Shown here: positions 5,048 to 44,154 of the stretch, piece by piece
Layout of the letters: each line of letters begins with the position of its first letter
Position numbering within the stretch: position 1 is the first letter of the stretch
Assembly (NCBI GenBank): GCA_017442875.1
Contig: JAFSPN010000050.1
Coordinates: forward strand, 1 to 46,933
Source of the DNA: Bacilli bacterium
GTDB lineage: Bacteria > Bacillota_I > Bacilli_A > RFN20 > CAG-826
Direction: 5' to 3'
Length of the DNA: 46,933 nucleotides
Translations under genes and position numbers: made by a program
Notes under the pieces: generated by a model
Seen by the model: only the letters and a program-made list of their open reading frames with translations
The model's database searches: none
What the model was told of the DNA's origin: nothing

Positions 5048-6865
5048 ATGGATTTTTCCCAGAAAAAAATTAGAAATTTTTCAATTATCGCTCATATTGA
5101 CCATGGTAAGTCCACATTAGCGGACCGTATTTTAGAATTGACTGGAGCAATTGAAGCTAGGGAAATGAAAGACCAAATTCTCGACTCTATGGATTTAGAA
5201 AGAGAAAGAGGCATTACCATTAAACTTAACGCTGTGACGTTAGGCTATCACGCCGATGATGGGGAAGACTATGTCTTCAACCTCATCGATACTCCCGGAC
5301 ACGTCGACTTTACATATGAAGTGAGCCGTTCTTTAGCCGCTTGTGAAGGCGCCCTTTTAGTAGTAGACGCCACCCAAGGTGTAGAAGCCCAAACTCTCGC
5401 TAATGCTTATTTAGCGGTGGACAACGACTTAGAAATTATTCCTGTTATCAACAAAGTTGATTTACCTTCCGCTAATATCCAAATGGCAAAAGATGAAATT
5501 GAAAAGAAGATTGGTATTCCTTGTGATGAAGCGGTGGAAGTCAGCGCTAAAACAGGCTTACACGTTCACGAACTATTAGAGGCTATAGTGAGAGGCGTTC
5601 CAGCCCCTAACGGTGATCCAAAAGCCCCTTTAAAGGCTTTAATCTTTGATAGTTATTATGATCCATATCGTGGGGTTATCGTTTTAGTGAGAATCAAAGA
5701 CGGGGAAGTCAAAGTGGGCGATAAGATTCGCCTCATGCAAGCGGGAAAAGAATATCAAGTTATCGAACTTGGTATTAGAACCCCAAAAGAAATTAAGACC
5801 GATTCTTTAAGCGCTGGACAAGTTGGTTATATTGCCGCGCAGATTAAGGACATCAAAGATGTCCGTCCTGGTGATACTGTCACTTTAGTGGAAACTCCCG
5901 CTAAAGAAGCGTTACCTGGCTACCGCATTATGAACCCAATGGTCTACTGTGGTCTATATCCCGTCGATAGTGATGATTATCAAGATTTAAAAGACGCTTT
6001 AGAAAAACTGACATTAAACGATGCGTCCTTACAATTTGTCGCTGAAACAAGCCAAGCTTTGGGCTTTGGCTTTAGATGCGGTTTCTTAGGCTTACTACAT
6101 ATGGATGTAGTGCAAGAAAGATTAGAAAGAGAATATAATCTCGATTTAATTTTGACCGCACCTAGTGTTATTTATAAAGTTCACATGACTGATGGAGAAG
6201 TTATCAACCTTGATAACCCATCCAAATTACCAGATGCAAGCAAAGTGTCATTTATCGAAGAGCCTTATATTAAGGCTAATATCATGACACCAAAAGAATA
6301 CATCGGTCCAATTATGGAATTATGTCGTGAAAGAAGAGGTATTTATGAAAACCTCGATTATTTCGATGATACAAGGATGGTTTTAACCTATGAATTGCCT
6401 CTTTCCGAGATAGTTTATAACTTTTTTGATAAATTAAAGAGCTACACGAAAGGCTATACCTCATTTGATTATGATTTCAGCGACTATAAACGCGCTGATC
6501 TAGTAAAACTAGACATCTTACTTAATGGGCAAGTCGTGGATGCTCTTAGCAGTATCATATATCGCCCAGATGGCTATCACCGTGGTTTAGGCATTATTCG
6601 TAAGATTAAAACCGTCATTCCAAGGCAGCAATTTGAAATCCCAATCCAGGCCGCAATAGGGGGAAAAGTCATTGCTCGATGCGATGTTAAAGCCGTGAGA
6701 AAAGACGTCTTGGCCAAATGTTATGGTGGTGACATTTCCCGTAAGAAGAAACTCTTAGAAAAGCAAAAAGAAGGCAAGAAGAGAATGAAGAAAGTCGGCT
6801 CTGTAGAAGTGCCGCAAGAAGCATTTATGTCCATTCTATCCATCGATGAAGAAGAAGACAATTAG
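5048..6865 (+). CDS. lepA: Elongation factor 4 (LepA), ribosome-associated GTPase
   Basis: LepA is a translational GTPase acting on the 70S ribosome, linked to back-translocation and 30S biogenesis. The length (605 residues) is typical. The G1 motif AHIDHGKST is near residue 16, followed by [15 protein letters not shown] and NKVDLP. The distinctive LepA C-terminal domain ends in [17 protein letters not shown]. The ATG begins 6 bp after the preceding stop with no clear Shine-Dalgarno. In many Bacillota lepA is followed directly by hemW and the hrcA operon. Here two extra genes (6949-8652) lie between lepA and hemW. Confidence 0.97.
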
Positions 6866-6872
6866 TGCAAAA

Positions 6873-6897
6873 TTAGTAGTTTTTTAGAAAATATTAT
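6873..6897 (+). promoter_or_regulatory. 11-bp-period TTAGTA-type direct repeat and candidate -10
   Basis: TTAGTA (6873-6878) and TTAGAA (6884-6889) are spaced exactly 11 bp, followed after 2 bp by TATTAT (6892-6897), a possible -10 for the gene at 6949. The same repeat geometry recurs at 22019, 26624, 36397, 39956 and 45445. Confidence 0.45.
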
Positions 6898-22005: not shown

Positions 22006-22018
22006 TTGTGGTAAATAA

Positions 22019-22045
22019 TTAGTAAATAATTAGTAAAGGTATAAT
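22019..22045 (+). promoter_or_regulatory. dnaG promoter with 11-bp-period TTAGTA repeats
   Basis: TTAGTA at 22019-22024 and 22030-22035 (exact 11-bp period, inside two tandem copies of GTAAATAATTA), then 4 bp and a perfect -10 TATAAT (22040-22045). The ATG follows the box by 8 bp with no Shine-Dalgarno, so the mRNA is probably leaderless. Confidence 0.6.
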
Positions 22046-25852: not shown

Positions 25853-26616
25853 ATACTAAGCAGTTAATTAGAAAACTAGCCGTTAACTTTCCAAAGCGTT
25901 ACGCCAAAATGAATCATGATTTTGTTGGTTTGATGACTGGTAAACTTCCAGAAGAAGTCCATAAGATTGTTTTATGTTTGGACTTCGATCAACAAGTTCT
26001 TCCTTTGATAAAGGAAAATAAACCAGATTTAATCATTACTCATCATCCATTTATCTATGGCACTAAGTATCAAGTGTTCAAATGGGACAAGTTTAAAGAA
26101 GAACTTTGTAGTGAAATAGATGCCTTAGGCGTTCCTGTTTATAGCATGCATACGAATTTCGATACAGGAAAAGATGGCATGAATGATGCTTTAGCGGAAG
26201 CTCTTGAGCTCAATAATATCTATGCCCCTGAAAAGGACATCATGATGCGCATTGGAGAACTAAAAGAAGCGATGCCGATCTTAGAATTCGCTAAATTTGC
26301 TAAGGCAAAACTTGATGTTGAATACGGCTTATTGATTGATGAAGGCAATCCAATGATTAAGAAAGTTGGCATTGTCGGTGGTGCGGGTTCTAGAGCCTGG
26401 AACATCGCTAGAGATGAGGGCTGTGATATATTTATATCAGGAGATACGCCACATCATATTAGAAGATCCATCGTCAACGAACATTTCAACTATTTAGATC
26501 TCCCACATGAAATTGAAAGAATCTTCATGCCACAGATGAAAAAAATCCTTCTTTCCATCGATCCAACACTAGAAATACTTATGGTGGACCACGAAGAAAG
26601 ACCAAAAGTAATATAG
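25849..26616 (+). CDS. Nif3-like dinuclear metal-binding protein
   Basis: A 255-residue NIF3/YqfO-family protein. Metal ligands are visible in THHPFIYG and HTNFDTGKDGMNDALAEAL, plus a C-terminal HFNYLDLPHEIER segment. The family's role is uncertain; a GTP cyclohydrolase-like or metal-handling role has been suggested for relatives. This one lacks the long middle insertion of YqfO, hence its shorter length. Overlaps trmK by 4 bp. Confidence 0.9.
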   Translation: MNTKQLIRKLAVNFPKRYAKMNHDFVGLMTGKLPEEVHKIVLCLDFDQQVLPLIKENKPDLIITHHPFIYGTKYQVFKWDKFKEELCSEIDALGVPVYSMHTNFDTGKDGMNDALAEALELNNIYAPEKDIMMRIGELKEAMPILEFAKFAKAKLDVEYGLLIDEGNPMIKKVGIVGGAGSRAWNIARDEGCDIFISGDTPHHIRRSIVNEHFNYLDLPHEIERIFMPQMKKILLSIDPTLEILMVDHEERPKVI

Positions 26617-26623
26617 TATAATG

Positions 26624-26650
26624 CTAGTATTAAATTAGTAATTATATATC
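26624..26650 (+). promoter_or_regulatory. 11-bp-period CTAGTA/TTAGTA repeats before the cyclophilin gene
   Basis: CTAGTA (26624-26629) and TTAGTA (26635-26640) have an exact 11-bp period, followed 4 bp later by TATATC (26645-26650), a weak -10. A perfect TATAAT also exists at 26617-26622, just before the repeats, so either may be the real promoter. Confidence 0.45.
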
Positions 26651-27150: not shown

Positions 27151-28041
27151 ATGGCTAAAGATTTATTAATCGGTTCACACGTTTCAATGAATGGTCCAGA
27201 ATACTACCTTGGTAGTGTTAAGGAAGCGATTTCCTATGGCGCGACAACATTCATGTTCTATACAGGCGCTCCACAAAATTCCTATAGGAAACCATTAGAG
27301 GAATTAAAAATCAAGGAAGGCCGTTCTTTATTAAAAGAACATGGTTTTGACGAAAGCAAGATTGTGGTTCACGCTCCTTATATCATTAATGCCGCTAATC
27401 CAAGTAAACCAGAATTATTAGATTTGTCGATTAAGACAATTATTAACGAACTTCAAAGAACGGAAGCTTTTGGCGCTTCAATGTTAGTTCTTCACCCAGG
27501 AAATCATCTTGGAGCAGGACCAGACGCTGCGATTGATGTCTTAGCCGATTCTTTAGATAAAGTATTTGCTAGTGATGGCACAAATGTCAAAATCGCCATT
27601 GAAACAATGGCGGGCAAAGGTTCCGAAATCGGAACTTGCTTTGAACAAGTGCGTGACATAATCGAAAAATGCCATTATAAAGACCGCTTGGGCGTTTGTT
27701 TAGATACTTGCCATGTTTCTGATGCTGGCTATGATATCAACGATACTGATGGCCTTTTAGATGAATTTGATCGCATTATTGGTTTAGAGCGTTTATTAGT
27801 TGTGCATGTCAACGATTCAAAGAATCAACGCGGCGCGCATAAAGATAGACACGAAAACCTTGGCTATGGTGAAATTGGCTTTGATGCTTTATGCCGCATT
27901 GCTAATCATCCGCGCTTAAAGAACATTCCAAAGATTTTAGAAACCCCATATATCAATGAAAAAGCCCCATATTCTGATGAAATCAGAATGCTAAGGGCTG
28001 AATCTTTTGAACCTAATTGGAAAGATAAGTATTTAGCGTAG
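27151..28041 (+). CDS. nfo: Endonuclease IV (AP endonuclease)
   Basis: Cleaves abasic sites in base-excision repair. 296 residues with TIM-barrel metal motifs: GSHVSM, VVHAPYIINAANP, LHPGNHLGAG, IETMAGKGSEIG, LDTCHVSDAGYDI, VVHVNDSKNQRGAHKDRHENLGYG. All the trinuclear zinc ligand regions are recognisable. It ends overlapping the convergent ispG by 9 bp. Confidence 0.97.
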   Translation: MAKDLLIGSHVSMNGPEYYLGSVKEAISYGATTFMFYTGAPQNSYRKPLEELKIKEGRSLLKEHGFDESKIVVHAPYIINAANPSKPELLDLSIKTIINELQRTEAFGASMLVLHPGNHLGAGPDAAIDVLADSLDKVFASDGTNVKIAIETMAGKGSEIGTCFEQVRDIIEKCHYKDRLGVCLDTCHVSDAGYDINDTDGLLDEFDRIIGLERLLVVHVNDSKNQRGAHKDRHENLGYGEIGFDALCRIANHPRLKNIPKILETPYINEKAPYSDEIRMLRAESFEPNWKDKYLA

Positions 28042-29082
28042 GCTATCGATCTCTTGAATCATCGCGTCATAGGCTTCGTCCTCTGACACTTTTTTAATGA
28101 CTTCGCCTTTTTTGAAGATGACATATTGGCCTTTGCCTCCGGCAATACCAATATCGGCATTTTTAGCCTCGCCTGGTCCGTTGACAACGCATCCCATGAC
28201 TGCGACAGTAAGCTTATAGTTATTATCTTCTAAGTATTTGAATATTTTCGCGCCTAATGGACGAACATCAACTTGCGTTCTACCACATGTTGGGCAAGAA
28301 ATGAATGTAGGATAATTATCGTATAGACCACAGTCATGTAATAGACGTTTCGCGGCAATGACTTCGTCTTTAGATTCACCAGTAATGGAAATACGGATGG
28401 TATCGCCAATGCCATCTAAAAGAAGAGGAGCGAGTCCAGCCGTGCTTCTAATAACTGATAAATCATATGGTCCCGCTTCAGTGATACCGATATGAAGCGG
28501 ATATGGGAACATTTCGCTTGCTAATTGATATGCTTTGATCGTTTCTTTGATATTGCTAGCTTTCAAAGAGATGACTATATCGTGGAAATCAAACTTTTCT
28601 AATAGTTCAACTTGTTCTTTAACTGATAAAATCAGTTTATGAGATAATGGAATGTCCAATTCATCGATAATCTTATTAACGGAACCAGAGTTAGCACCGA
28701 CGCGAATTGCGACATGTTTCTTTTTCGCTAATTCAACGATTTCTTTAATTTTGTTCTCATCGCTGATGTTTCCTGGATTAATCCTAATTTTATTTGCGCC
28801 GCATTTAATGGCTAAAATTGCTAAGTTAGGATCGAAATGAATATCCGCGACTAAAGGAATTTTTATACCCTTTTTAATCTGTGCAATCGCCATAGCGTCT
28901 TCTTCGTCCAAGACGGACACACGCATAAGCTTAGCGCCTAATGCTTCGCATTCGTTAATTTCATTAACTACCGCTTCGACATCAGAAGTCTTATGTTTGC
29001 ACATTGATTGGATTAAAACTTTGTCTTGTCCGCCAAGAGTTAAGCGGCCAATTCTGATTTGTCTTGTTTGTGTTCTTTTCAT
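28033..29082 (-). CDS. ispG: 4-hydroxy-3-methylbut-2-enyl diphosphate synthase IspG
   Basis: A [4Fe-4S] enzyme of the MEP isoprenoid pathway. 349 residues with the N-terminal TIM barrel (SMCKHKTSD, ADIHFDPNLA, RINPGN) and the C-terminal cluster domain with SCPTCGRT and GCVVNGPGEA. The TIM-barrel insert of plant and chlamydial forms is missing, as in most bacteria. Minus strand amid plus-strand genes, convergent with nfo. TATAAT on the minus strand lies 8 bp before the ATG with no useful Shine-Dalgarno. Its presence shows this organism makes isoprenoids by the MEP route, which many small-genome Mollicutes have lost. Confidence 0.97.
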   Translation of the reverse strand: MKRTQTRQIRIGRLTLGGQDKVLIQSMCKHKTSDVEAVVNEINECEALGAKLMRVSVLDEEDAMAIAQIKKGIKIPLVADIHFDPNLAILAIKCGANKIRINPGNISDENKIKEIVELAKKKHVAIRVGANSGSVNKIIDELDIPLSHKLILSVKEQVELLEKFDFHDIVISLKASNIKETIKAYQLASEMFPYPLHIGITEAGPYDLSVIRSTAGLAPLLLDGIGDTIRISITGESKDEVIAAKRLLHDCGLYDNYPTFISCPTCGRTQVDVRPLGAKIFKYLEDNNYKLTVAVMGCVVNGPGEAKNADIGIAGGKGQYVIFKKGEVIKKVSEDEAYDAMIQEIDSLR

Positions 29083-30914: not shown

Positions 30915-30929
30915 ATTAGTTCTACTAAT
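30915..30929. repeat. Palindrome ATTAGT-TCT-ACTAAT
   Basis: A perfect 6-bp inverted repeat around TCT, immediately after the plsY stop. The core TATTAGTTCTACTA occurs again at 45437-45450, so it may belong to the TTAGTA motif family. Confidence 0.45.
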
Positions 30930-31710
30930 TCTCTACCGGCTTTTTCCTATCCATCCATTTGATTTTTCTCTCATTACCAGCCTTTAAACGAGCGATGTTT
31001 TCGTGGTGTCTAATGACTGTGATGATGACGATGATGGTCATGACAATAGCGAATACATAGTTAACATACAACATTGGTCCCCAAAGAATGAACCAATAGG
31101 CGTTATCAGGGATGACATGGAGCATTAATAAGATGGCCCAAACCCAACTTAAGATTGCGCTTTGAATGCCCACTAAGATGGAAGATAAAGAAACATAACG
31201 CCATCTATATAAAGTGGCTAAATATGTGATAGCACCAGCTACTCCATATGCCCATGATGTTGTAATCATTAAGCCAATGTATGTAGAGGCGGCTTTGCCA
31301 CCTCTAAATTTGGTGAATAGTGGGAAAATATTACCTAAAACAGCACCTAAACAGGCTAACCAATAAACTGGCCATTGAATGATATACATTGATAAATCGG
31401 TGGATGTGTACATTTCTTTAGCACTTGGAAGAATCGTAGCACCGTTATTTAATGGAACAAATGTAAGAATTGCCCAGCATAAATATAGGGAAGCGATTGT
31501 TTTGAAAACATCAAATAAGAAAACGATGAGAAAATACTTCTTTCCCCAAAGTCTACCGCAGTTTGTGGCACCGCAATTATGTGAACCATAATCGCGTGGA
31601 TCTTGCTTAAAAACTAATTTTCCCAAAGGAATAGAGATATTTGCGCTACCTAAAATGTAGCCAATTAATAGACATGCTAATGCTACCAATATATTAACTA
31701 ATATATTCAT
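30925..31710 (-). CDS. plsY: Glycerol-3-phosphate acyltransferase PlsY
   Basis: Membrane enzyme transferring acyl groups from acyl-phosphate to glycerol-3-phosphate, the first step of phospholipid synthesis. Hydrophobic throughout (about seven segments) with motif 1 GSANISIPLGKLVF followed by YGSHNCGATNCGR, and motif 2 FRGGKAASTYIG. At 261 residues it is longer than most PlsY (about 200); the extra part is a hydrophobic stretch near residues 90-125 and a longer C-terminus. Start ATG has a GGGGGGAAG Shine-Dalgarno. It is alone on the minus strand. Confidence 0.93.
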   Translation of the reverse strand: MNILVNILVALACLLIGYILGSANISIPLGKLVFKQDPRDYGSHNCGATNCGRLWGKKYFLIVFLFDVFKTIASLYLCWAILTFVPLNNGATILPSAKEMYTSTDLSMYIIQWPVYWLACLGAVLGNIFPLFTKFRGGKAASTYIGLMITTSWAYGVAGAITYLATLYRWRYVSLSSILVGIQSAILSWVWAILLMLHVIPDNAYWFILWGPMLYVNYVFAIVMTIIVIITVIRHHENIARLKAGNERKIKWMDRKKPVEN

Positions 31711-31807
31711 TTTCTTCCCCCCGATTTTTACTCTTTTTATTCTACTAAAACGCTTTATATTTGCAACTTAATTTGTATATAATTAAGTCTTGCAAAGGAA
31801 AAATATA

Positions 31808-33751
31808 GTGTCTGAATTAAGAAAAACAACATATACAGCTGATGATATTCATGTCATGAAAGGACTTGAAGGTGTCAGAAAAAGACCGGCCATGTACATT
31901 GGTTCTACCAACGCAACAGGTCTTCATCATTTAGTGTGGGAAGTCGTTGATAATAGTGTTGACGAAGCCTTGTCTGGATATGGTAAAAAGATTATTGTGA
32001 CCATGCATAAAGATGGTTCGATCTCTGTTTTAGACGAAGGTCGTGGTATTCCAGTCGGCATTAATAAAGAGACAGGTCGACCTGCGGTCGAAGTCGTTTT
32101 TACTGAACTTCATGCCGGTGGTAAATTCAATAATGCTGTTTATAAATCCGCTGCTGGTTTACATGGTGTTGGTGCTTCTGTTACCAACGCTTTAAGCGAA
32201 TGGATAGACATAAATGTCTATCAAAACGGTAATATTTACCATTTAAAATTTGAAAATGGTGGTAATCTCGTTACTCCACTTGAAATCATCGGCACAACTA
32301 AAAAACATGGTACTTATGTTAGGTTCAAACCAGATGCGACTATTTTTAGCACTGTTGAATTCAAATGGGATACAATTGCAAGCCACTTACAAGAATCCGC
32401 TTTCTTGATGAAAGGCGTCGAATTCGTCTTATTAGACGAAAAGACTGGACAAAACCAAAGCTTTTTATATGAAAATGGTTTAGTGGAATACATCAATAAC
32501 ATCAACGGAAATAAGAACGCATTGTCTAACGTTATCGACTTTTCTGATACTGATGCAGAGACACAAATCGATGTTGAAATCGCACTTCAATACTGCAACG
32601 AAGACTACAATGAGACAATCTATTCTTACGTTAATAACGTAAGAACAAGAGATGGTGGTACTCATGAAACAGGCTTTAGAGCGGGTATCACAAAAGCAGT
32701 CAATGATTTCGCTGATGAATACAAGATTTTAAAAGGCAAAAAGCTTGAAGGTAGTGATATTCGTGAAGGTTTAACTGCGGTTATTTCCTTAAAAATCCCT
32801 GAAACTCTTCTTGAATTTGAAGGCCAAACAAAAGGTAAACTAGGCACACCTCAAGCCATTTCTGTCGTTAGCAATTTTATTTATAATAAGTTTACTTATT
32901 ATCTTACCGAAAACAAAGAGTTCGCTATTAATTTGATCAATAAATGCGTTGCTTCTCAAACTGCAAGACTTGCCGCTAGAAAAGCTAAAGAAGAGGCAAG
33001 AAGCAGCAAAAAACCAAAACAAGACCTTATTTTAAGTGATAAATTGACCCCAGCGCAGTCTAAAGACTACGCTAAAAACGAGCTTTTTATCGTTGAAGGT
33101 GATTCCGCTGGTGGTACTGCCAAAAAAGGTAGAGATAGATTGCATCAAGCTATATTACCACTTCGTGGTAAACCATTAAATACAGACTCGATATCAATTG
33201 ACAAATTAGTGCATAATGAAGAAATCGCTACCATTATTAATACCATTGGTGCGGGTTTTGGACAAAGTTTTGATCTTGAAGACATTAAGTATGGCAAAAT
33301 CATTATTATGACCGATGCTGATACCGATGGTGCTCACATTCAAACATTGCTTTTAACATTTTTCTATCACTATATGAGACAGCTAATTACTTCCGGACAC
33401 GTCTTTATTGCGGTTCCACCTTTATACCGCGTCTTCAAAGAAGACGGAAGAAAAGTTATCCAAGAATATGCTTGGGATGATGAAGGCTTAGAAAAAGCGA
33501 AAAAGATTGTCGGTGGTGGTTATAAAGTCAGCCGTTATAAAGGTCTTGGTGAAATGGATGCCATCCAGCTTAAAGAAACAACCATGGATCCAAAAACTAG
33601 ACTTTTGATTCAAGTGGATATTGAAGATCCAATCCTCGTTGAAAAGCGTGTTAATGTCCTCATGGGTAGAGACACCTCTATTCGTCGTGCATGGGTTGAA
33701 GAAAACGTCGATTTCAATAAAGTCGATTCATTTATGAATGAGGTAAAGTAA
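31808..33751 (+). CDS. parE: Topoisomerase IV subunit B
   Basis: The ATPase subunit of the decatenating type IIA topoisomerase. 647 residues: GHKL ATPase (VVDNSVDEALSGYG, DEGRGIPVG, HAGGKFNNAVYKSAAGLHGVGASVTNALS), transducer with QTKGKLGTP, and TOPRIM (FIVEGDSAGGTAKKGRD, IMTDADTDGAHI). The sequence is closer to Bacillota ParE than to GyrB (DILPLRGKPLNT region, NEEIATIINTIGAG). I chose GTG 31808 because AAAGGA lies about 8 bp before it; a TTG at 31790 would extend into the leader. It is 4 bp from parC. Confidence 0.93.
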   Translation: MSELRKTTYTADDIHVMKGLEGVRKRPAMYIGSTNATGLHHLVWEVVDNSVDEALSGYGKKIIVTMHKDGSISVLDEGRGIPVGINKETGRPAVEVVFTELHAGGKFNNAVYKSAAGLHGVGASVTNALSEWIDINVYQNGNIYHLKFENGGNLVTPLEIIGTTKKHGTYVRFKPDATIFSTVEFKWDTIASHLQESAFLMKGVEFVLLDEKTGQNQSFLYENGLVEYINNINGNKNALSNVIDFSDTDAETQIDVEIALQYCNEDYNETIYSYVNNVRTRDGGTHETGFRAGITKAVNDFADEYKILKGKKLEGSDIREGLTAVISLKIPETLLEFEGQTKGKLGTPQAISVVSNFIYNKFTYYLTENKEFAINLINKCVASQTARLAARKAKEEARSSKKPKQDLILSDKLTPAQSKDYAKNELFIVEGDSAGGTAKKGRDRLHQAILPLRGKPLNTDSISIDKLVHNEEIATIINTIGAGFGQSFDLEDIKYGKIIIMTDADTDGAHIQTLLLTFFYHYMRQLITSGHVFIAVPPLYRVFKEDGRKVIQEYAWDDEGLEKAKKIVGGGYKVSRYKGLGEMDAIQLKETTMDPKTRLLIQVDIEDPILVEKRVNVLMGRDTSIRRAWVEENVDFNKVDSFMNEVK

Positions 33752-33755
33752 TCTT

Positions 33756-36386
33756 ATGGCCAGAGCAAAAAAGATTGATTTAGTCGAAGAAAATTACGCT
33801 GAAAATATCTCCATTCAACCTATGGAAGATGTAATGGGTGACCGTTATGCGACATACGCAAAATATGTCATTCAAGATCGTGCTATTCCAGATGTTAGAG
33901 ATGGTTTAAAACCAGTTCAAAGACGTATTGTTTTCACAATGTATCGCAATAACAACGTCTTTAATAAACCGACTAGAAAATGCGCTCATACCGTTGGCGC
34001 GGTTATGGGTACTTTCCACCCACATGGTGATACATCTATTTATGAAGCCTTGGCTAGAATGAGCCAAGATTGGAAGGTTCGTTATCCATTAATCGATTTC
34101 CAAGGTAACAACGGTAGTATCGATGGTGACTCACCAGCGGCTTATCGTTATACCGAATCTAGACTTAGCGAATTATCTAACGAATTAGTGCGTGATATCG
34201 ACAAGAAAACGGTCGATATGCAGCTCAACTTCGATGATACAGAACTCGAACCAATCGTTCTTCCAGCGAGGTTCCCAAACCTCTTTGTTAATGGTACAGA
34301 AGGTATTGCTGTTGCTTTAGCAACAGAAATCCCACCTCACAACCTTAGAGAAATCACTAATGCGATTATTTATCGTATTGGTCATAAAACTGCGACAATT
34401 GAAGATTTAATGCAATTCGTTTTAGGCCCAGATTTCCCTGGTGGTGGTATTATTTACGAAAGTGAAGGGCTTAAAAATATCTACTTAACTGGTAGAGGCC
34501 GTATTGAAATCGCTAGTAAAGCTGAAATCGTCCAAAATAAAGATAATCAGCAAATTATTATCACTGAAATTCCATATAAAACACAGAAAAACCAGTTGGT
34601 TTTTGAAATCGATAAAATCGTCCACTCTAAAGCGGTTGATGGTCTTTTAGAAGTAAGAGATGAATCTGACTGGAAAGGCATTAGAATTGTCATTGATTGT
34701 AAGAAAGACGCGAAGTGTGATCTACTTTTACAATACTTGATGAATAAGACTGGTTTAGTCACTTCATATTCTACGAATATGGTTGCCATTGTTGATGGCC
34801 GTCCAAAGACCTTAAATCTTTTAACTTATATCGATGCTTACATCGCTCATCAAGTTGATGTCGTCACCAGAAAGAGCCAATTCGATTTAGAAAAATTCAG
34901 CGCTAGATTACATATCGTTGAAGGTCTTATTTACGCTTCTTTGAATATCAATGAAGTGGTGGAAATCATCAAAAAGAGTAAAGATAAAGCAGATAGCAAA
35001 CTCAACTTAATGAAACGCTACGAATTCTCTAACGAACAAGCAGAAGCAATCGTGACAATGCCTTTATATAAGTTATCTCATACCGATGAGGTCATTTTGC
35101 AAAAAGAAAAAGAAGGCTTAATCAAAGACATCGAAACACTCAAAGGAATTCTTGAAGACGAGGCTAAACTCAACCGTGTTTTAGTTCGTGAACTAAAAGC
35201 TATCGCTGATAAGTATGGCGATGATCGACGTACACAAATCCAAGAAAAACAAGAAGTGGCACCAATCGATAAGCGTGAATTAATTGCCAAAGATGATGTT
35301 ATGGTGGCTTTATCTCGCGATGGTTATGTCAAAAGATCAACCCTTAAATCATATCGTAGCAGCCAAGATAATTACCTTCCTGGCTTAAAAGATGGCGATG
35401 AATTAGTGGGTGCTGGCTTACTCAATACCACCGATTATTTGATTTGTTTTACAAATCAAGGTAATTACATTTGCGTCCCAGTTCATAAGATTAGTGAAAA
35501 TAGATGGAAAGATGAAGGCGGTCACTTAAACGTCTTCTCAACCTTAGCACCAGGCGAAAAAATCATTAAAGGCATTGCCGTCAGCGACTTTAGAGATGAC
35601 ATTTATTTAGGCATTCTCACCAAGTTTGGTCAAATCAAACGTATGCCTTTAAATATGATAGAAAAAGGAAAGCGCTCGCGCCCAATACGTAATATGCGTT
35701 TATTAAATGGTGATGAAGTAAGTGATGTCCAAGTATTAAGCGGCAATTCTAACTTACTAATCGTCGCAAGCAATGGTAATGTTTCTTATTTCAATGAAAA
35801 CGAATTGACCATTCTTTCCAGCAAAGCTGGAGGTGTTAAATCCATGGCGGGTTTAGGCAAGAATAGTGCGGTTGCTTTGATTCCTTTTGACGAAGAAGAA
35901 AAGAACAAAATCATCTTATTTACCGATAAAGGCCATTATCGTATATTCGATAATGCTCACGTGACTTTTACTCCGCGTTTAGGCAAAGTGACATCGGTGA
36001 TGCCGTGCTTTAAGAGCGATATCCATCATGTTGTCAGCGCATTTAAACTACCAAAACAAGATTTATTAAAAATAAATCTTTTCCTTGATAATAATCAATA
36101 CCAAATCTTTGAGTTGACTGATTTCTACTTATCTGATCTCGCTAAATACGCGAAAAAGAACATTGATATCCCTGCTAAAACCAAAGTGCTCAATGTATTT
36201 GATTGCGTTATTGACGTAGTCAATAAAGATACAATTTCTCATCCAATTACCATCAAAGAAAAACCAGTTGTTATTAAGAGCTTTGATGACGAAAACGTTG
36301 AAGCGGAACAAGAAAACGAAGTTATAGAAAAGCCAGAAAAAGAAGGTTTTGAACAGATTTCAATCTTTGATGACCTCGATGATTAA
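33756..36386 (+). CDS. parC: Topoisomerase IV subunit A
   Basis: The DNA-cleaving subunit paired with ParE, needed to unlink daughter chromosomes. 876 residues: DVRDGLKPVQRRIVFTMY, quinolone-region HPHGDTSIYEA, catalytic Tyr132 in AAYRYTESRLSE, and the C-terminal beta-pinwheel. GNNGSIDGD identifies it as ParC rather than GyrA (which has GNFGS). The residue at the quinolone hotspot is Thr93 with Glu97. It has an acidic tail. Shine-Dalgarno is weak (GAGGTAAAG), overlapping parE's end. Confidence 0.94.
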   Translation: MARAKKIDLVEENYAENISIQPMEDVMGDRYATYAKYVIQDRAIPDVRDGLKPVQRRIVFTMYRNNNVFNKPTRKCAHTVGAVMGTFHPHGDTSIYEALARMSQDWKVRYPLIDFQGNNGSIDGDSPAAYRYTESRLSELSNELVRDIDKKTVDMQLNFDDTELEPIVLPARFPNLFVNGTEGIAVALATEIPPHNLREITNAIIYRIGHKTATIEDLMQFVLGPDFPGGGIIYESEGLKNIYLTGRGRIEIASKAEIVQNKDNQQIIITEIPYKTQKNQLVFEIDKIVHSKAVDGLLEVRDESDWKGIRIVIDCKKDAKCDLLLQYLMNKTGLVTSYSTNMVAIVDGRPKTLNLLTYIDAYIAHQVDVVTRKSQFDLEKFSARLHIVEGLIYASLNINEVVEIIKKSKDKADSKLNLMKRYEFSNEQAEAIVTMPLYKLSHTDEVILQKEKEGLIKDIETLKGILEDEAKLNRVLVRELKAIADKYGDDRRTQIQEKQEVAPIDKRELIAKDDVMVALSRDGYVKRSTLKSYRSSQDNYLPGLKDGDELVGAGLLNTTDYLICFTNQGNYICVPVHKISENRWKDEGGHLNVFSTLAPGEKIIKGIAVSDFRDDIYLGILTKFGQIKRMPLNMIEKGKRSRPIRNMRLLNGDEVSDVQVLSGNSNLLIVASNGNVSYFNENELTILSSKAGGVKSMAGLGKNSAVALIPFDEEEKNKIILFTDKGHYRIFDNAHVTFTPRLGKVTSVMPCFKSDIHHVVSAFKLPKQDLLKINLFLDNNQYQIFELTDFYLSDLAKYAKKNIDIPAKTKVLNVFDCVIDVVNKDTISHPITIKEKPVVIKSFDDENVEAEQENEVIEKPEKEGFEQISIFDDLDD

Positions 36387-36396
36387 CAAATATTAT

Positions 36397-36424
36397 TTAG
36401 TAGTATATTAGTAAAGTATTAGTA
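36397..36424 (+). promoter_or_regulatory. Three TTAGTA repeats with 11-bp period after parC
   Basis: TTAGTA starts at 36397, 36408 and 36419, two successive 11-bp steps. They begin 11 bp after the parC stop. AT-rich sequence follows, then the terminator at 36464. This is the longest array of the motif in the window. Confidence 0.5.
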
Positions 36425-36463
36425 GATAATAAAACTTTGTTTTATAAGCAATATATTAAAAAT

Positions 36464-38252: not shown

Positions 38253-38540
38253 ATGCTTAATCCAAAACAAAAACGCGAACTAAAAGGCTTGGCTTCAACC
38301 CTTAAAACCCGTTACCAAATTGGTAAGAATGATATTTCCGATATCCTTATCGACATGCTCGATAAAGCTTTAACCGCTCATGAACTAATCAAAATCGATG
38401 TCATGAAAGGCTGTGCTTTACCAGTCATGGAAGTAGCGGTGGATATCGCTAATACATTAAAAGCCGAATTAGTGGAAGTCATGGGAAGAGTGATTGTGTT
38501 ATTCCGTAGGAATAAAGATAATCCAAAAATCAAAATCTAA
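38253..38540 (+). CDS. yhbY: YhbY/YqeI-family RNA-binding protein
   Basis: A 95-residue CRM-domain protein that associates with pre-50S particles in relatives. The start LNPKQKRELKGLASTLKTRYQIGKNDIS and the end GRVIVLFRRN(K) are characteristic. Its stop overlaps the next start by one base (TAATG). Confidence 0.94.
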   Translation: MLNPKQKRELKGLASTLKTRYQIGKNDISDILIDMLDKALTAHELIKIDVMKGCALPVMEVAVDIANTLKAELVEVMGRVIVLFRRNKDNPKIKI

Positions 38541-39616
38541 TGAATAGAATTATCTTCGGTGGTGGTTTCGATCCAATCCATTTAGGCCATATCAATATGG
38601 CTTTAGTGGCCAGAGACACTCTTAAAGGAGAAGTCATTTTCGTTCCCGCGAAAGTCGCTATTTGGAAGGAAGAATCAATTGACGAAGAGCATAAACTTGC
38701 AATGCTAAGACTTGCCGTATCAAAATATGAGGGTTTTAGTATTGATACGTTTGAATTAGAACAAAAGGAACAACCACGTTCATATCAAACAGTTGCTTAT
38801 TTCAAAAAGAAGTATCCAAGGGATAAACTCTTTTTCTTAATCGGTCAGGACCAGGCTAATGCCTTTAATCAATGGCTTAATCCAGAAAAAATCGCTAAAG
38901 AGGCTCAAATAGTTTACTATAAAAGGCCAAAATTCATCGTCAATCAAGAAAATGTAGACCGATTTAAGATGATTGCCTTAGAAGGACCAGTAGTGGATAT
39001 TGCTTCTAGCGATGTACGCGCTTTAAAGTCGGTTGCTGTTCCAGAAGAAGTGCTTAATTATATCGAAGAAAACAATCTTTACTTTATAAGTAAAGTTAGA
39101 AGTTATATCAAAGAATCCCGCTTCAACCACTCATTGTCTGTCGCTCATTTAGCGTATCGTTTAGCCAAGAAGCACCAATTAGATTATCAAAAAGCTTATA
39201 TAGCTGGAATCTTGCATGATCTCGCTAAAGGCATTGATAAAGATGAGAGTTTAGCGATGATGAAACAACTTTATCCAGAGTTTCTGGATATAGGCGCTTA
39301 TGCATATCACCAATTTTTAGGTGAAACGCTCGTTAAGAGAGACTTTAACATTCAAGACGAAGAAATACTCAATGCGATTAAATATCACACAACTGGGCGT
39401 GCGAATATGTGCTGGCTCGAGAAACTAATTTATGCCGCGGATAAGATTGAACCATCTAGACCATTTGATTCATCGGATTTAATAGCCGCGATGGAAGAAG
39501 ACCTCAATGGTGGATTCTTAACAGTTTTAAAAGCCAACTATGATTATCTAAAAGAGCATCACAAAGCCATCGATAATCGTCTCAGCGACGAGTGTTTTAA
39601 GCAGTATTTAGGCTAA
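38540..39616 (+). CDS. NadD-YqeK fusion: nicotinate-nucleotide adenylyltransferase plus HD-domain Ap4A hydrolase-like protein
   Basis: One 358-residue frame joins two enzymes encoded separately in most Bacillota. Residues 1-190 are NadD: GGGFDPIHLGHINMA (GxFxPxHxGH), FVPA and the C-terminal SSxDVR variant SSDVRAL. It makes nicotinate adenine dinucleotide in NAD synthesis. Residues about 195-358 are YqeK: SRFNHSLSVAHLA, GILHDLAKG (HD motif), YHTTGRANMCWLEKLIYAADKIEPSRPF. YqeK relatives hydrolyse diadenosine tetraphosphate. No internal stop or start with a Shine-Dalgarno is seen between the two. It ends the yqeG-yqeH-yhbY operon; the terminator is at 39641. Confidence 0.92.
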   Translation: MNRIIFGGGFDPIHLGHINMALVARDTLKGEVIFVPAKVAIWKEESIDEEHKLAMLRLAVSKYEGFSIDTFELEQKEQPRSYQTVAYFKKKYPRDKLFFLIGQDQANAFNQWLNPEKIAKEAQIVYYKRPKFIVNQENVDRFKMIALEGPVVDIASSDVRALKSVAVPEEVLNYIEENNLYFISKVRSYIKESRFNHSLSVAHLAYRLAKKHQLDYQKAYIAGILHDLAKGIDKDESLAMMKQLYPEFLDIGAYAYHQFLGETLVKRDFNIQDEEILNAIKYHTTGRANMCWLEKLIYAADKIEPSRPFDSSDLIAAMEEDLNGGFLTVLKANYDYLKEHHKAIDNRLSDECFKQYLG

Positions 39617-39640
39617 TCATTGAGACAAAATGAAACGAGT

Positions 39641-39668
39641 AGCAGCCCAAAAAGCTGCTTTTAATTTG
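39641..39668 (+). terminator. Terminator after nadD-yqeK
   Basis: AGCAGC (39641-39646), 7-base loop, GCTGCT (39654-39659), then TTTTAATTT. It is preceded by 25 bp after the stop. Confidence 0.85.
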
Positions 39669-39760
39669 TTAACACACATTTCTTGAATTTGTATTTGCCT
39701 TTCTAATCGATTATCCTGTAATTAGGATGATCTAAAACAGATGAGAGTGGTTGAATATGC

Positions 39761-39788
39761 TTTTCCACAGTTATACACATTTTCCACA
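39761..39788 (+). promoter_or_regulatory. Cluster of three DnaA-box-like 9-mers
   Basis: TTTTCCACA (39761-39769), TTATACACA (39771-39779) and TTTTCCACA (39780-39788) each differ from the DnaA consensus TTATCCACA at one base and are spaced 10 and 9 bp. They lie 21 bp left of the dif-like site. A fourth, CTATCCACA, is at 39928. The orientation of flanking genes argues against an origin here. Confidence 0.5.
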
Positions 39789-39809
39789 TCAAATTTCGCA
39801 AATATATTA

Positions 39810-39837
39810 ACTTCGCATAATTGCCATTATGTTAACT
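39810..39837. other. dif: dif-like chromosome-dimer resolution site
   Basis: A 28-bp site with the XerC-type 11-bp arm ACTTCGCATAA (39810-39820), 6-bp centre TTGCCA and XerD-type arm TTATGTTAACT (39827-39837). The left arm carries the CGCATAA core of the E. coli site and the ACTTC start of the Bacillus site. The right arm differs from the E. coli XerD arm by one base and from Bacillus by one base (from memory of those sequences). It lies in a 362-bp non-coding gap exactly where gene direction switches. A xerD-like recombinase gene is 3.4 kb away. The remaining sequence of the gap is AT-rich. Confidence 0.88.
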
Positions 39838-39927
39838 AAAATACATAAAAAACGAAATATTACTAAAGTAAAATAAAACCTAATATTACAACGAATTTAA
39901 AGCACGCGAAAAACTTTGTGCGATTAT

Positions 39928-39936
39928 CTATCCACA
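39928..39936 (+). promoter_or_regulatory. Single DnaA-box-like 9-mer
   Basis: CTATCCACA differs from the DnaA consensus at the first base. It is about 90 bp right of the dif-like site. Confidence 0.4.
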
Positions 39937-39955
39937 AATGTTGAGAAAATCAAAC

Positions 39956-39972
39956 TACTAGAAAACTACTAA
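39956..39972 (-). promoter_or_regulatory. 11-bp-period TTAGTA/CTAGTA repeat (minus orientation)
   Basis: TACTAG (39956-39961) and TACTAA (39967-39972) on the plus strand, i.e. TTAGTA-N5-CTAGTA on the minus strand, with an exact 11-bp period. It lies between the dif-like site and the end of the PemK-like gene. No gene starts within reach, so its target is unclear. Confidence 0.45.
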
Positions 39973-39978
39973 TTTGAA

Positions 39979-40557
39979 TTATCGTCTTTCAACTGAGCCG
40001 ACAAATAGATAATTGTTAACCGCATGCAAAATCTTGTCGTATTGTTCTTTTGTTAACCTATATATTTGTTTCAATTGAACCTCATATTCGCCTGTAAAAT
40101 CTTCAATATGGTTACAAGCATCGTTGACAAAGTTCGCTAATGCCTTGTCTCCAAACAGTCTCATCTTATCTATTGTCCTAATTTGATTTACTAAAGCTAC
40201 AGATTCTTTGCAGTTCGGTATTTCTGGGATTTCACCTAAACGAATTGTGCTTTTTGAATTGTATTCTCTAGATTCTTTCAACGAACTTAGTGGCACAATC
40301 GTAATCATTTGGTTGTTTTCTCTTGAAGTTTGCATCGCCACAACGAAATGCTGACCCCTTATTTCGGATCCATATCCTTGTTGAAAACGAACTTTGAATA
40401 CTTCGCCCCTTTCAATAGCGATTTTTGTCGTAAAGTGATTATTAAAGAAAATTCCTCTATTAATATCACTGACGAACTGGTTGTTGTTTTTGTTGTCAAT
40501 ATAAGAAGAAAAAAGAGGTTCTTCCCTTTTGACAGCTATTAGTTTTTTGTTTTCCAT
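39979..40557 (-). CDS. PemK/MazF-like protein with N-terminal extension
   Basis: A 192-residue protein. Residues about 50-170 match the PemK/MazF fold: RGEVFKVRFQQGYGSEIRGQHFVVAMQT...MITIVPLSSLKES, with the Arg and the Ser/Thr residues of the MazF RNase site region present. Typical toxins are about 110 residues; this one adds about 50 polar residues at the front and about 30 at the end. No antitoxin-sized gene precedes it, so its identity as a free-acting toxin is uncertain. I chose ATG 40557 because AAGGAG lies 9-10 bp upstream. It is isolated between the dif-like site and a TnpB transposon, a place where accessory genes often lie. Confidence 0.72.
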   Translation of the reverse strand: MENKKLIAVKREEPLFSSYIDNKNNNQFVSDINRGIFFNNHFTTKIAIERGEVFKVRFQQGYGSEIRGQHFVVAMQTSRENNQMITIVPLSSLKESREYNSKSTIRLGEIPEIPNCKESVALVNQIRTIDKMRLFGDKALANFVNDACNHIEDFTGEYEVQLKQIYRLTKEQYDKILHAVNNYLFVGSVERR

Positions 40558-40611
40558 ATGTTTTGTCTCCTTATAAAGCAAAATATGAAATCTAAGGGAC
40601 TATGAAAACAA

Positions 40612-40890: not shown

Positions 40891-42048
40891 ATGAAAAGAA
40901 TTGCTTATAAGTATCGTATCTATCCTAACACTGAGCAAAAGATCTTATTTGCTAAATGTTTTGGATGTGTTCGTTTCTTTTATAATAAGTCTCTATCTGA
41001 TATGAATGAGATATATAAAAGCACGGGTAAGTTTAAAAATATTACTCCTGCCTCATATAAGGAAGATTATTCGTTTTTAAAAGAAGTAGATTCGCTTGCT
41101 TTAAGTAATGCTCAACTTAATAGAAACACCGCGTTTAAAGCTTTCTTTTCTCACAAAACAGGTTTTCCTAAGTTTAAAAGCAAAAGAAACGATCAAAGCT
41201 ATACGACAAATAATCAAGGAAGCGTGAAGTTTTCTAATAACAATAGATATATCTCCATTCCTAAATGTTCAAGAATAAGAATTAAAAAACATCGTGGCTT
41301 TGATGGAATAATTAAATCAATTACTGTTTCTATGACCACTGATAACAGATACTACATTTCTTTACTAGTTGAAGAAGAAAATAAACCAATGGGACCAGCA
41401 AACAAGATGATTGGTTTAGATTTAGGTATAAAAGACTTAATCGTTGATAGTAATGGTAAGAAATATAAGAATCAAAAATACTTAACTAAATCACAGAATA
41501 AACTCGCTAGAGAGCAAAGAAAACTATCTAAAATGGTTAAAGGTAGCAACAATAGAAACAAACAAAGAATCAAAGTTGCTAGATTACACAAACATATTCA
41601 AAATCAAAGAAATGATTATCTCCACAAACTTTCAAAACATATAATTGATGAAAACCAAGTCATTTGTATTGAAGATTTGAAAGTAAAGGGCATGATGAGT
41701 GATTCTAAAATAGCAAGAAACATATCTGATGTATCTTGGTCTAGATTAGTATCGATGCTAACTTATAAGGCTAGTTGGTACGGAAGAACTGTTATTAAGG
41801 TTCCTAAAGATTATCCAAGTAGTCAACTTTGTCATGCATGTGGATATAAAAACTCAATCACTAAGAATCTCAACATTAGGAAATGGACTTGTCCTAAATG
41901 TGGGTCTATTCATGATCGAGATATAAACGCTGCGAAAAATATTCTAAGTAAGGGAATTGAAATGCTTACAAAGGATGGGACACATCCGGATAGCTTGTTT
42001 ATGCTTGGCTCGTTAGAGTCATCGAGCAAGAAGCCCCCACTTCTTTAA
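40891..42048 (+). CDS. tnpB: TnpB, RNA-guided nuclease of the IS200/IS605 family
   Basis: TnpB is the transposon-encoded ancestor of Cas12 and cuts DNA guided by an RNA from the element's right end. The 385-residue protein is full-length. The RuvC residues are visible: Asp in GLDLGIKD, Glu in CIEDLKV and Asp in HDRDINAAKN, with a zinc finger CHACGYKN...CPKCGSIH between the last two. The N-terminal MKRIAYKYRIYPNTEQK is the usual start. No Shine-Dalgarno precedes the ATG. Its last codons and TAA are inside the right-end hairpin, so the guide RNA overlaps the 3' end of the gene. Confidence 0.93.
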   Translation: MKRIAYKYRIYPNTEQKILFAKCFGCVRFFYNKSLSDMNEIYKSTGKFKNITPASYKEDYSFLKEVDSLALSNAQLNRNTAFKAFFSHKTGFPKFKSKRNDQSYTTNNQGSVKFSNNNRYISIPKCSRIRIKKHRGFDGIIKSITVSMTTDNRYYISLLVEEENKPMGPANKMIGLDLGIKDLIVDSNGKKYKNQKYLTKSQNKLAREQRKLSKMVKGSNNRNKQRIKVARLHKHIQNQRNDYLHKLSKHIIDENQVICIEDLKVKGMMSDSKIARNISDVSWSRLVSMLTYKASWYGRTVIKVPKDYPSSQLCHACGYKNSITKNLNIRKWTCPKCGSIHDRDINAAKNILSKGIEMLTKDGTHPDSLFMLGSLESSSKKPPLL

Positions 42049-43278: not shown

Positions 43279-44154
43279 TCACTTCATCATCTTATCATAA
43301 TCGGACTTTAATTTCTCGCTTGAAACGTGCGTATATATTTGTGTGGTCGCAATGTTGGTGTGCCCAAGCATGCTTTGGACGATTCTTAGCTGCGCTCCAT
43401 GATTTAATAGATGCGTAGCAAAACTATGTCTTAGCGTATGCGGCGAGACATTTGTTTCAATGCCTGCTTGAAGACTGTATTTTTTTACTTGCTTAAAGAA
43501 ATAGACGCGTGAAAGCGGTTCTCCTTTCTTTGAAAGGAATAAGTATTTGCTACTTTTGAATTCACTCTTGTTTCTTACTTCTTTAATGTATTCTTGAATA
43601 TATTCAACAGCGTAATCCGCAATTGGAACTTTCCTTTCTTTTGCGCCTTTGCCAAAGACGGTAATGATGCCTTTTGAAAGATTGACCTGTGCTTTTTCTA
43701 AAGATAAAAGTTCACTAACTCTGAGACCAGAAGAATACATTGTCTCAAGCATTGCTTTGTCTCTAAGACCACTTGGAGTGGATAAATCAGGAGCGTTAAG
43801 CAAAGCTTCTACTTCATCTTCAGTCAAACAGTTTGGCAAGTATTTAGGTTTCTTAGGTGTCTCAATATCTGGAATGACACCTTGATAATAGCCATCTCTT
43901 TTAAGAAACAAGAAAAAGTTTCTCATACATGACAAACGTCTCAAAGCAGTTGAGACAGAATGGCCAATTGATAATTCGTATTTTAAAAACTCATACAAAT
44001 CTGATTCTAATAAATCATCTGTGGTTTTCTTATCATCAAAATGATTGAAAAAAGCTTGGATATCTTCTAGATATGATACCCATGTTTGAAAAGAGAGACC
44101 TTTTTCCACTAGAACATATTGCTTATAACTATCGACGGCATCAATTATTTCCAT
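43279..44154 (-). CDS. xerD: XerD-type tyrosine recombinase
   Basis: Resolves chromosome dimers at dif. 291 residues: N-terminal SAM-like DNA-binding domain (about 1-100), and the catalytic domain with Arg (SGLRVSELL), Lys region, HTLRHSFATHLL (HxxR), GHTNIATTQIYTH (His and nucleophile Tyr). The near-perfect Xer motif and its place beside deoB support XerD rather than an integrase. The start overlaps dinB by 14 bp, with GAGG 10 bp upstream. The dif-like site is 3.4 kb away. No second Xer protein is in the window. Confidence 0.94.
   Translation of the reverse strand: MEIIDAVDSYKQYVLVEKGLSFQTWVSYLEDIQAFFNHFDDKKTTDDLLESDLYEFLKYELSIGHSVSTALRRLSCMRNFFLFLKRDGYYQGVIPDIETPKKPKYLPNCLTEDEVEALLNAPDLSTPSGLRDKAMLETMYSSGLRVSELLSLEKAQVNLSKGIITVFGKGAKERKVPIADYAVEYIQEYIKEVRNKSEFKSSKYLFLSKKGEPLSRVYFFKQVKKYSLQAGIETNVSPHTLRHSFATHLLNHGAQLRIVQSMLGHTNIATTQIYTHVSSEKLKSDYDKMMK

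Follow-up and report, generated by a model that had tools for sequence, protein, structure and literature searches.

Gene content and layout of the locus

The window, that is, the whole stretch of 46,933 nucleotides that was analysed, contains a 28-bp site with an XerC-type and an XerD-type arm at 39810-39837, as had been reported in an earlier sequence-only reading of this DNA. The site is accompanied by genes of chromosome resolution and by short sequence motifs on both sides:

31790-36386, plus strand: parE and parC, topoisomerase IV
39761-39788, plus strand: three tandem DnaA-box 9-mers on the XerC side of dif (39761-39769, TTTTCCACA; 39771-39779, TTATACACA; 39780-39788, TTTTCCACA)
39810-39837, plus strand: dif site (XerC-type arm, 39810-39820; centre TTGCCA, 39821-39826; XerD-type arm, 39827-39837)
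39928-39936, plus strand: DnaA-box-like 9-mer CTATCCACA on the XerD side of dif, 18 bp before the repeat array
39955-39973, plus strand: 11-bp-phased array CTACTAGAAAACTACTAAT, 118 bp after dif, at a fixed place across the genus and with 11-bp spacing across the order
43279-44154, minus strand: XerD-like tyrosine recombinase that probably acts on dif (TIGR02225 XerD, E = 3.8e-96; PRK00283 over its cut-off)

XerC and XerD bind the two arms of dif, and FtsK activates both recombinases to resolve chromosome dimers. The XerD-like protein scores 321.8 bits on TIGR02225, just under the curated cut-off of 329.6. Its gene lies 3.4 kb to the right of dif, and topoisomerase IV ends, with parC, 3.4 kb to the left; both distances are as the sequence-only reading gave them. 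An Xer-type gene is found less than 5 kb from dif in all five genomes checked (G033, G067, G099, G014 and that of the window), and each of these genomes also encodes an FtsK gamma domain and additional recombinases of the Xer type. Linkage of an Xer gene to dif has more often been noted for the single-recombinase XerS and XerH systems.

Three other genes adjoin the site. Directly to the left is a fused NadD-YqeK gene (38540-39616, plus strand), coding for a nicotinate-nucleotide adenylyltransferase joined to an HD hydrolase. To the right, a PemK/MazF-type toxin-like gene (39979-40581, minus strand) ends 6 bp beyond the dif array, and at this position genus relatives seemingly encode a C-terminus related to it. 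Between dif and xerD lies an IS200/IS605-type TnpB gene (40891-42048, plus strand), which seems to have been inserted into the terminus recently, because the distance from dif to xerD is about 1.4 kb shorter in G014.

Sequence and conservation of dif

The 28-mer ACTTCGCATAATTGCCATTATGTTAACT, which reads ACTTCGCATAA-TTGCCA-TTATGTTAACT, has the 11-6-11 layout of known dif sites, with two 11-bp arms around a 6-bp centre. It is present once in the 1.32-Mb, 68-contig assembly when up to 3 mismatches are allowed, and shuffled windows gave no match at 3 mismatches. With the arm pattern and any centre, dif is found in 13 of the 16 genomes of the genus, once each, and in 165 of the 196 genomes of the order, in nearly every case as a single copy, most of these genomes being fragmented metagenome assemblies. 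A second, weak match occurs in G046 and G045. The sequence-only reading had proposed that the site be aligned across relatives and checked for uniqueness, and on both counts it behaves as a chromosomal dif, single in its own genome and present once in nearly all relatives. Records with the genus form of dif are mostly ruminant metagenome assemblies labelled as Bacilli, Bacillales or Erysipelotrichaceae.

The same reading had called the GC-rich centre unusual. It is not: the arms are kept across the order, and it is the four inner positions of the centre that differ from genus to genus (GTCC, TGCC, TGTC, AGAC, ATAT and others), which makes TTGCCA unremarkable. Such variation is expected if the centre must match only between two copies in one cell.

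The system resembles XerCD/dif of Bacilli and E. coli in its 28-bp, 11-6-11 site with an ATAAT....ATTATGTWAAC core, in its single copy at the terminus, and in the presence of XerC/XerD-type and FtsK gamma genes. It differs in the TTGCCA centre, in the closeness of an xer gene to dif (less than 5 kb in the genomes checked), and in the conserved DnaA boxes and 11-bp arrays that adjoin dif.

Position of the replication terminus

GC skew was computed on stretches of genome, and long contigs of relatives were added, the window alone being too short to settle the matter. Within the window, the slope of cumulative GC skew changes at about 42.1 kb, 2.3 kb to the right of dif (651 there vs. 628 at dif). 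In contig C2 of G014, a member of the same genus, the cumulative maximum (98,259) and dif (98,304) are 45 bp apart, and the fraction of coding sequence on the plus strand goes from 0.84 to 0.00 across dif, within the next 10 kb. The maximum in contig C2 of G011 is 1.6 kb from dif. A skew switch at dif was one of the checks that the sequence-only reading had named, and these two contigs provide it. The skew minimum lies 2.2-2.6 kb before the matched dnaA domain in the genome of the window and in G014, within the stretches sampled. In G077, a single contig, dif (1,871,765) and dnaA (809,287) are separated by 51% of the circle; the skew in this genome is noisy, and the 11-bp arrays are absent though the genome is in one contig.

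Nearly all genes to the left of dif were described as lying on the plus strand and nearly all to the right on the minus strand. This is the case; in the right half of the window three run the other way. To the left of dif, 28033-29082 and plsY are on the minus strand, and to its right, tnpB is on the plus strand. The GC-skew maximum at or near dif in relatives and the flip of coding strand in G014, together with the single copy, support the earlier proposal that dif marks a probable replication terminus. What that proposal missed are the conserved DnaA boxes and repeat arrays that flank the site. We consider it highly probable that the 28-mer at 39810-39837 serves as dif, where chromosome dimers are resolved at the replication terminus, and that it belongs to a conserved terminus module with a DnaA box and arrays.

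DnaA boxes and phased repeats beside dif

DnaA boxes are usually a feature of replication origins. Those described here are identified by the 9-mer consensus: a cluster of 9-mers of the form TTWTNCACA occurs at dif, outside oriC. Those on the XerC side, at -39 and -30, recur in most members of the genus. On the XerD side the arrangement extends across the order: a DnaA box lies at about +85 from dif, and CTACTA repeats with 11-bp phasing occupy about +110 to +130. Enrichment was measured in 103 dif loci of the order, oriented on dif, which are related by descent, so that the counts are not independent. DnaA-box 9-mers reach 10.2 per kb at +51 to +100, against a background of 0.03 per kb, and ACTAMT words reach 32.5 per kb at +101 to +150, against 0.34 per kb. 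A TWTCCACA box lies at +40 to +150 in 56 of the 103 loci and in none when the interval is shifted by 300-1100 bp; CTACTA lies at +70 to +190 in 83, and in 1-4 with the same shifts. About half of the loci have no perfect box in the interval. An unbiased ranking of k-mers in dif flanks placed CTACTA words and TTTCCACA at the top, and GTGGATA at the top in other orders.

GTGGATA is the DnaA box reversed. In a set of 70 dif loci that belong to other families of the class, no 7-mer less than 100 bp from the site is more enriched (12 loci vs. 0.96 expected), and GTGGAWA recurs there at exactly +39 (8 loci), +48 (6 loci) and -35 (5 loci). Judged by the consensus, a DnaA box beside dif is present in several families of the class, in differing arrangements; in many other families, none was seen beside dif among these 70 loci. 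In the open-access literature, no prior report of DnaA boxes at dif was found.

The spacing of the repeats is regular. Of the pairs of CTACTA units, 67 have an 11-bp spacing and few have any other, and the gap from the end of the box to the first CTACTA is mostly 19-20 bp, then 30-31, 41-42 and 52-53 bp. Gaps that grow in steps of one helical turn argue that proteins occupy the same face of double-stranded DNA. DnaA boxes accompany 12 of 13 arrays at dif vs. 6 of 43 arrays elsewhere, some of the 6 being dif arrays that the dif pattern missed. The idea that the CTACTA units are themselves weak DnaA boxes (TTATCTACT compared with TTATCCACA) was considered and found no support, the order consensus being A-rich before CTACTA.

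Arrays across the terminus region

Arrays of this 11-bp type are also found away from dif, at the 3' ends of genes up to about 65 kb distant. Seven are in the window, at 6.9, 22.0, 26.6, 30.9, 36.4, 39.96 and 45.4 kb. Besides the array at dif, these are:

6863-6890, minus strand: array at the 3' end of a lepA-like gene, orthologous in G014 and G011
22009-22036, minus strand: array at the 3' end of a class II tRNA synthetase gene
26614-26641, minus strand: array at the 3' end of a DUF34/NIF3 gene
30922-30949, plus strand: weak array at the plsY 3' end, antisense to the minus-strand plsY
36398-36425, minus strand: perfect three-unit array (0 mismatches), 12 bp after the parC stop codon
45444-45460, plus strand: array between dinB and xseA, antisense to these minus-strand genes

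Two-unit matches with up to 2 mismatches number 12 in the window, vs. 1.6 expected. Three-unit arrays are found 6 times in the window, a count that includes the parC array on both strands, and 10 and 5 times in the C2 contigs of G014 and G011 (expected 0.0, 0.6 and 0.2, respectively). The arrays of these two relatives are at places orthologous to those of the window, and array-like hits in G099 and G170 cluster within about 30 kb of dif. No three-unit array was found in 194 kb sampled from two contigs that hold dnaA and hence the origin. Of 18 assignments to an adjacent gene, 15 place the array antisense to it, and the repeat contains TAG stop codons. Their orientation is mostly opposite on the two arms, with conserved exceptions that follow gene direction; the reversed arrays include the one at the end of plsY, 8.9 kb to the left of dif and conserved in place, and another 8.8 kb to its right.

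Other explanations for the site and its flanks

The position at gene 3' ends, the antisense bias and the stop codons inside the repeat are what would be seen if the arrays were ordinary 3'-end elements, i.e., signals for transcription or RNA processing whose tie to the terminus is only apparent. We regard this as unlikely: the 194 kb of the dnaA contigs has many gene ends and no array, and the helical phasing and the register with the DnaA box point to binding of double-stranded DNA. A similarly small chance is given to polar replication fork traps, functionally analogous to RTP/Ter of B. subtilis, where nine ter sites span about 10% of the chromosome (PMC13220808). Confinement to the terminus, mostly opposite orientation on the two arms and several short sites on each side of dif would suit a trap, and ACTAA words are common to both systems. 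The RTP family (PF02334), however, is represented in none of 58 order genomes, with a positive B. subtilis control; the units are 11-bp direct repeats rather than the 32-bp imperfect inverted repeats of ter; and orientation follows the adjacent gene, as the reversed arrays on either side of dif illustrate.

The presence of strong DnaA boxes beside CTACTA words, which we take to resemble the DnaA-trio sequence of B. subtilis, raises the question of an origin-like unwinding element, and hence of a second replication origin next to dif. The layout is not that of the B. subtilis trio region. The repeats are phased by 11 bp and not by 3, contiguous 3-nt trios are not found near the box, and the box is mostly 19-20 bp from the first repeat, or farther by 11-bp steps. 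The skew at dif is a maximum and not a minimum, and dnaA has a normal cluster of DnaA boxes, accompanied by a ATTATTATT region of its own and, not far off, by a skew minimum. The 11-bp periodicity and the skew maximum make an origin at dif very improbable. The least probable reading, to which we give hardly any weight, is that the 28-mer is the attachment site of an Xer-using mobile element and not the chromosomal dif. The TnpB and PemK-like genes just to its right are the sort of neighbours that such an element might have. Against it, the genome has one copy and no second dif-like site, the same site and flanks are found across the genus, and conservation at the skew switch extends across the order. 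A search for repeats within the window gave short matches at chance level only, and no tRNA was found near dif, which indicates that this is not a tRNA-type attachment site.

A proposed terminus module

The preferred reading is that dif, a DnaA-binding site and arrays for a putative terminus-domain protein together constitute a terminus module. The arrays most likely bind a sequence-specific protein that would mark the terminus domain or organise it, and DnaA would bind the boxes at dif; both proposals derive from motif sequence and spacing. DnaA could then be titrated, or its nucleotide state changed, as the terminus is replicated. Alternatively, dif may be held in a DnaA-containing complex. 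More broadly, and tentatively, we suggest that in this order of small-genome gut and rumen Bacilli DnaA may be recruited to dif alongside, and in register with, a new terminus-specific protein, that the 11-bp-repeat sites of this protein may tile the terminus domain, and that control by DnaA of the following replication round may thereby be tied to termination or to dimer resolution. This broader model is possible, although we would not favour it over the sum of its alternatives. Sites of the dif type are well known; if a DnaA-binding motif is conserved at a set distance from them, initiation and termination would be linked by sequence. Such a link can be tested directly, as the exact bases of the sites are known and purification of the proteins is feasible.

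Several known systems invite comparison. XerD mediates unloading of SMC at the B. subtilis terminus. The present system is similar to it in having sequence-specific sites and a recombinase-linked function at the terminus; it is dissimilar in that the CTACTA arrays resemble neither arm of dif, the dif arms being the sequences compared. As in the MatP/matS macrodomain of E. coli, a dispersed short motif is confined to the terminus domain, although the motif differs. The arrays look like an undescribed terminus-domain system, apparently outside the MatP and RTP/Tus types. The boxes recall datA and DARS of E. coli, which are non-coding clusters of DnaA boxes that regulate DnaA from conserved positions away from oriC (PMC4585315). 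The cluster described here, known from sequence, is likewise non-coding and conserved in chromosomal position, but is fused to dif at the terminus.

Variant repeats in relatives

Some relatives depart from the common arrangement. One genus of family f5 (g49) has different, TAGTACTAAT repeats beside dif and no box. The f5 dif loci L014 and L016-L022 have many repeats of the TAGTACTAAT type on both sides instead of the box and CTACTA array; these flanks are possibly a diverged version of the box and array system. At the parC array, a palindrome, ATATAACAAAGTTATAT (or ATAAAACAAAGTTTTAT), is fixed 13 bp before the array in the genus (from 36425 upwards in the window, and in L124 and L135). It was considered as a general feature of the arrays and rejected as such, being real at the parC array of the genus and not general. 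In G111 (contigs C18-C21), more than 100 loose three-unit matches are found, far above most relatives, which suggests that the array family has expanded in this genome.
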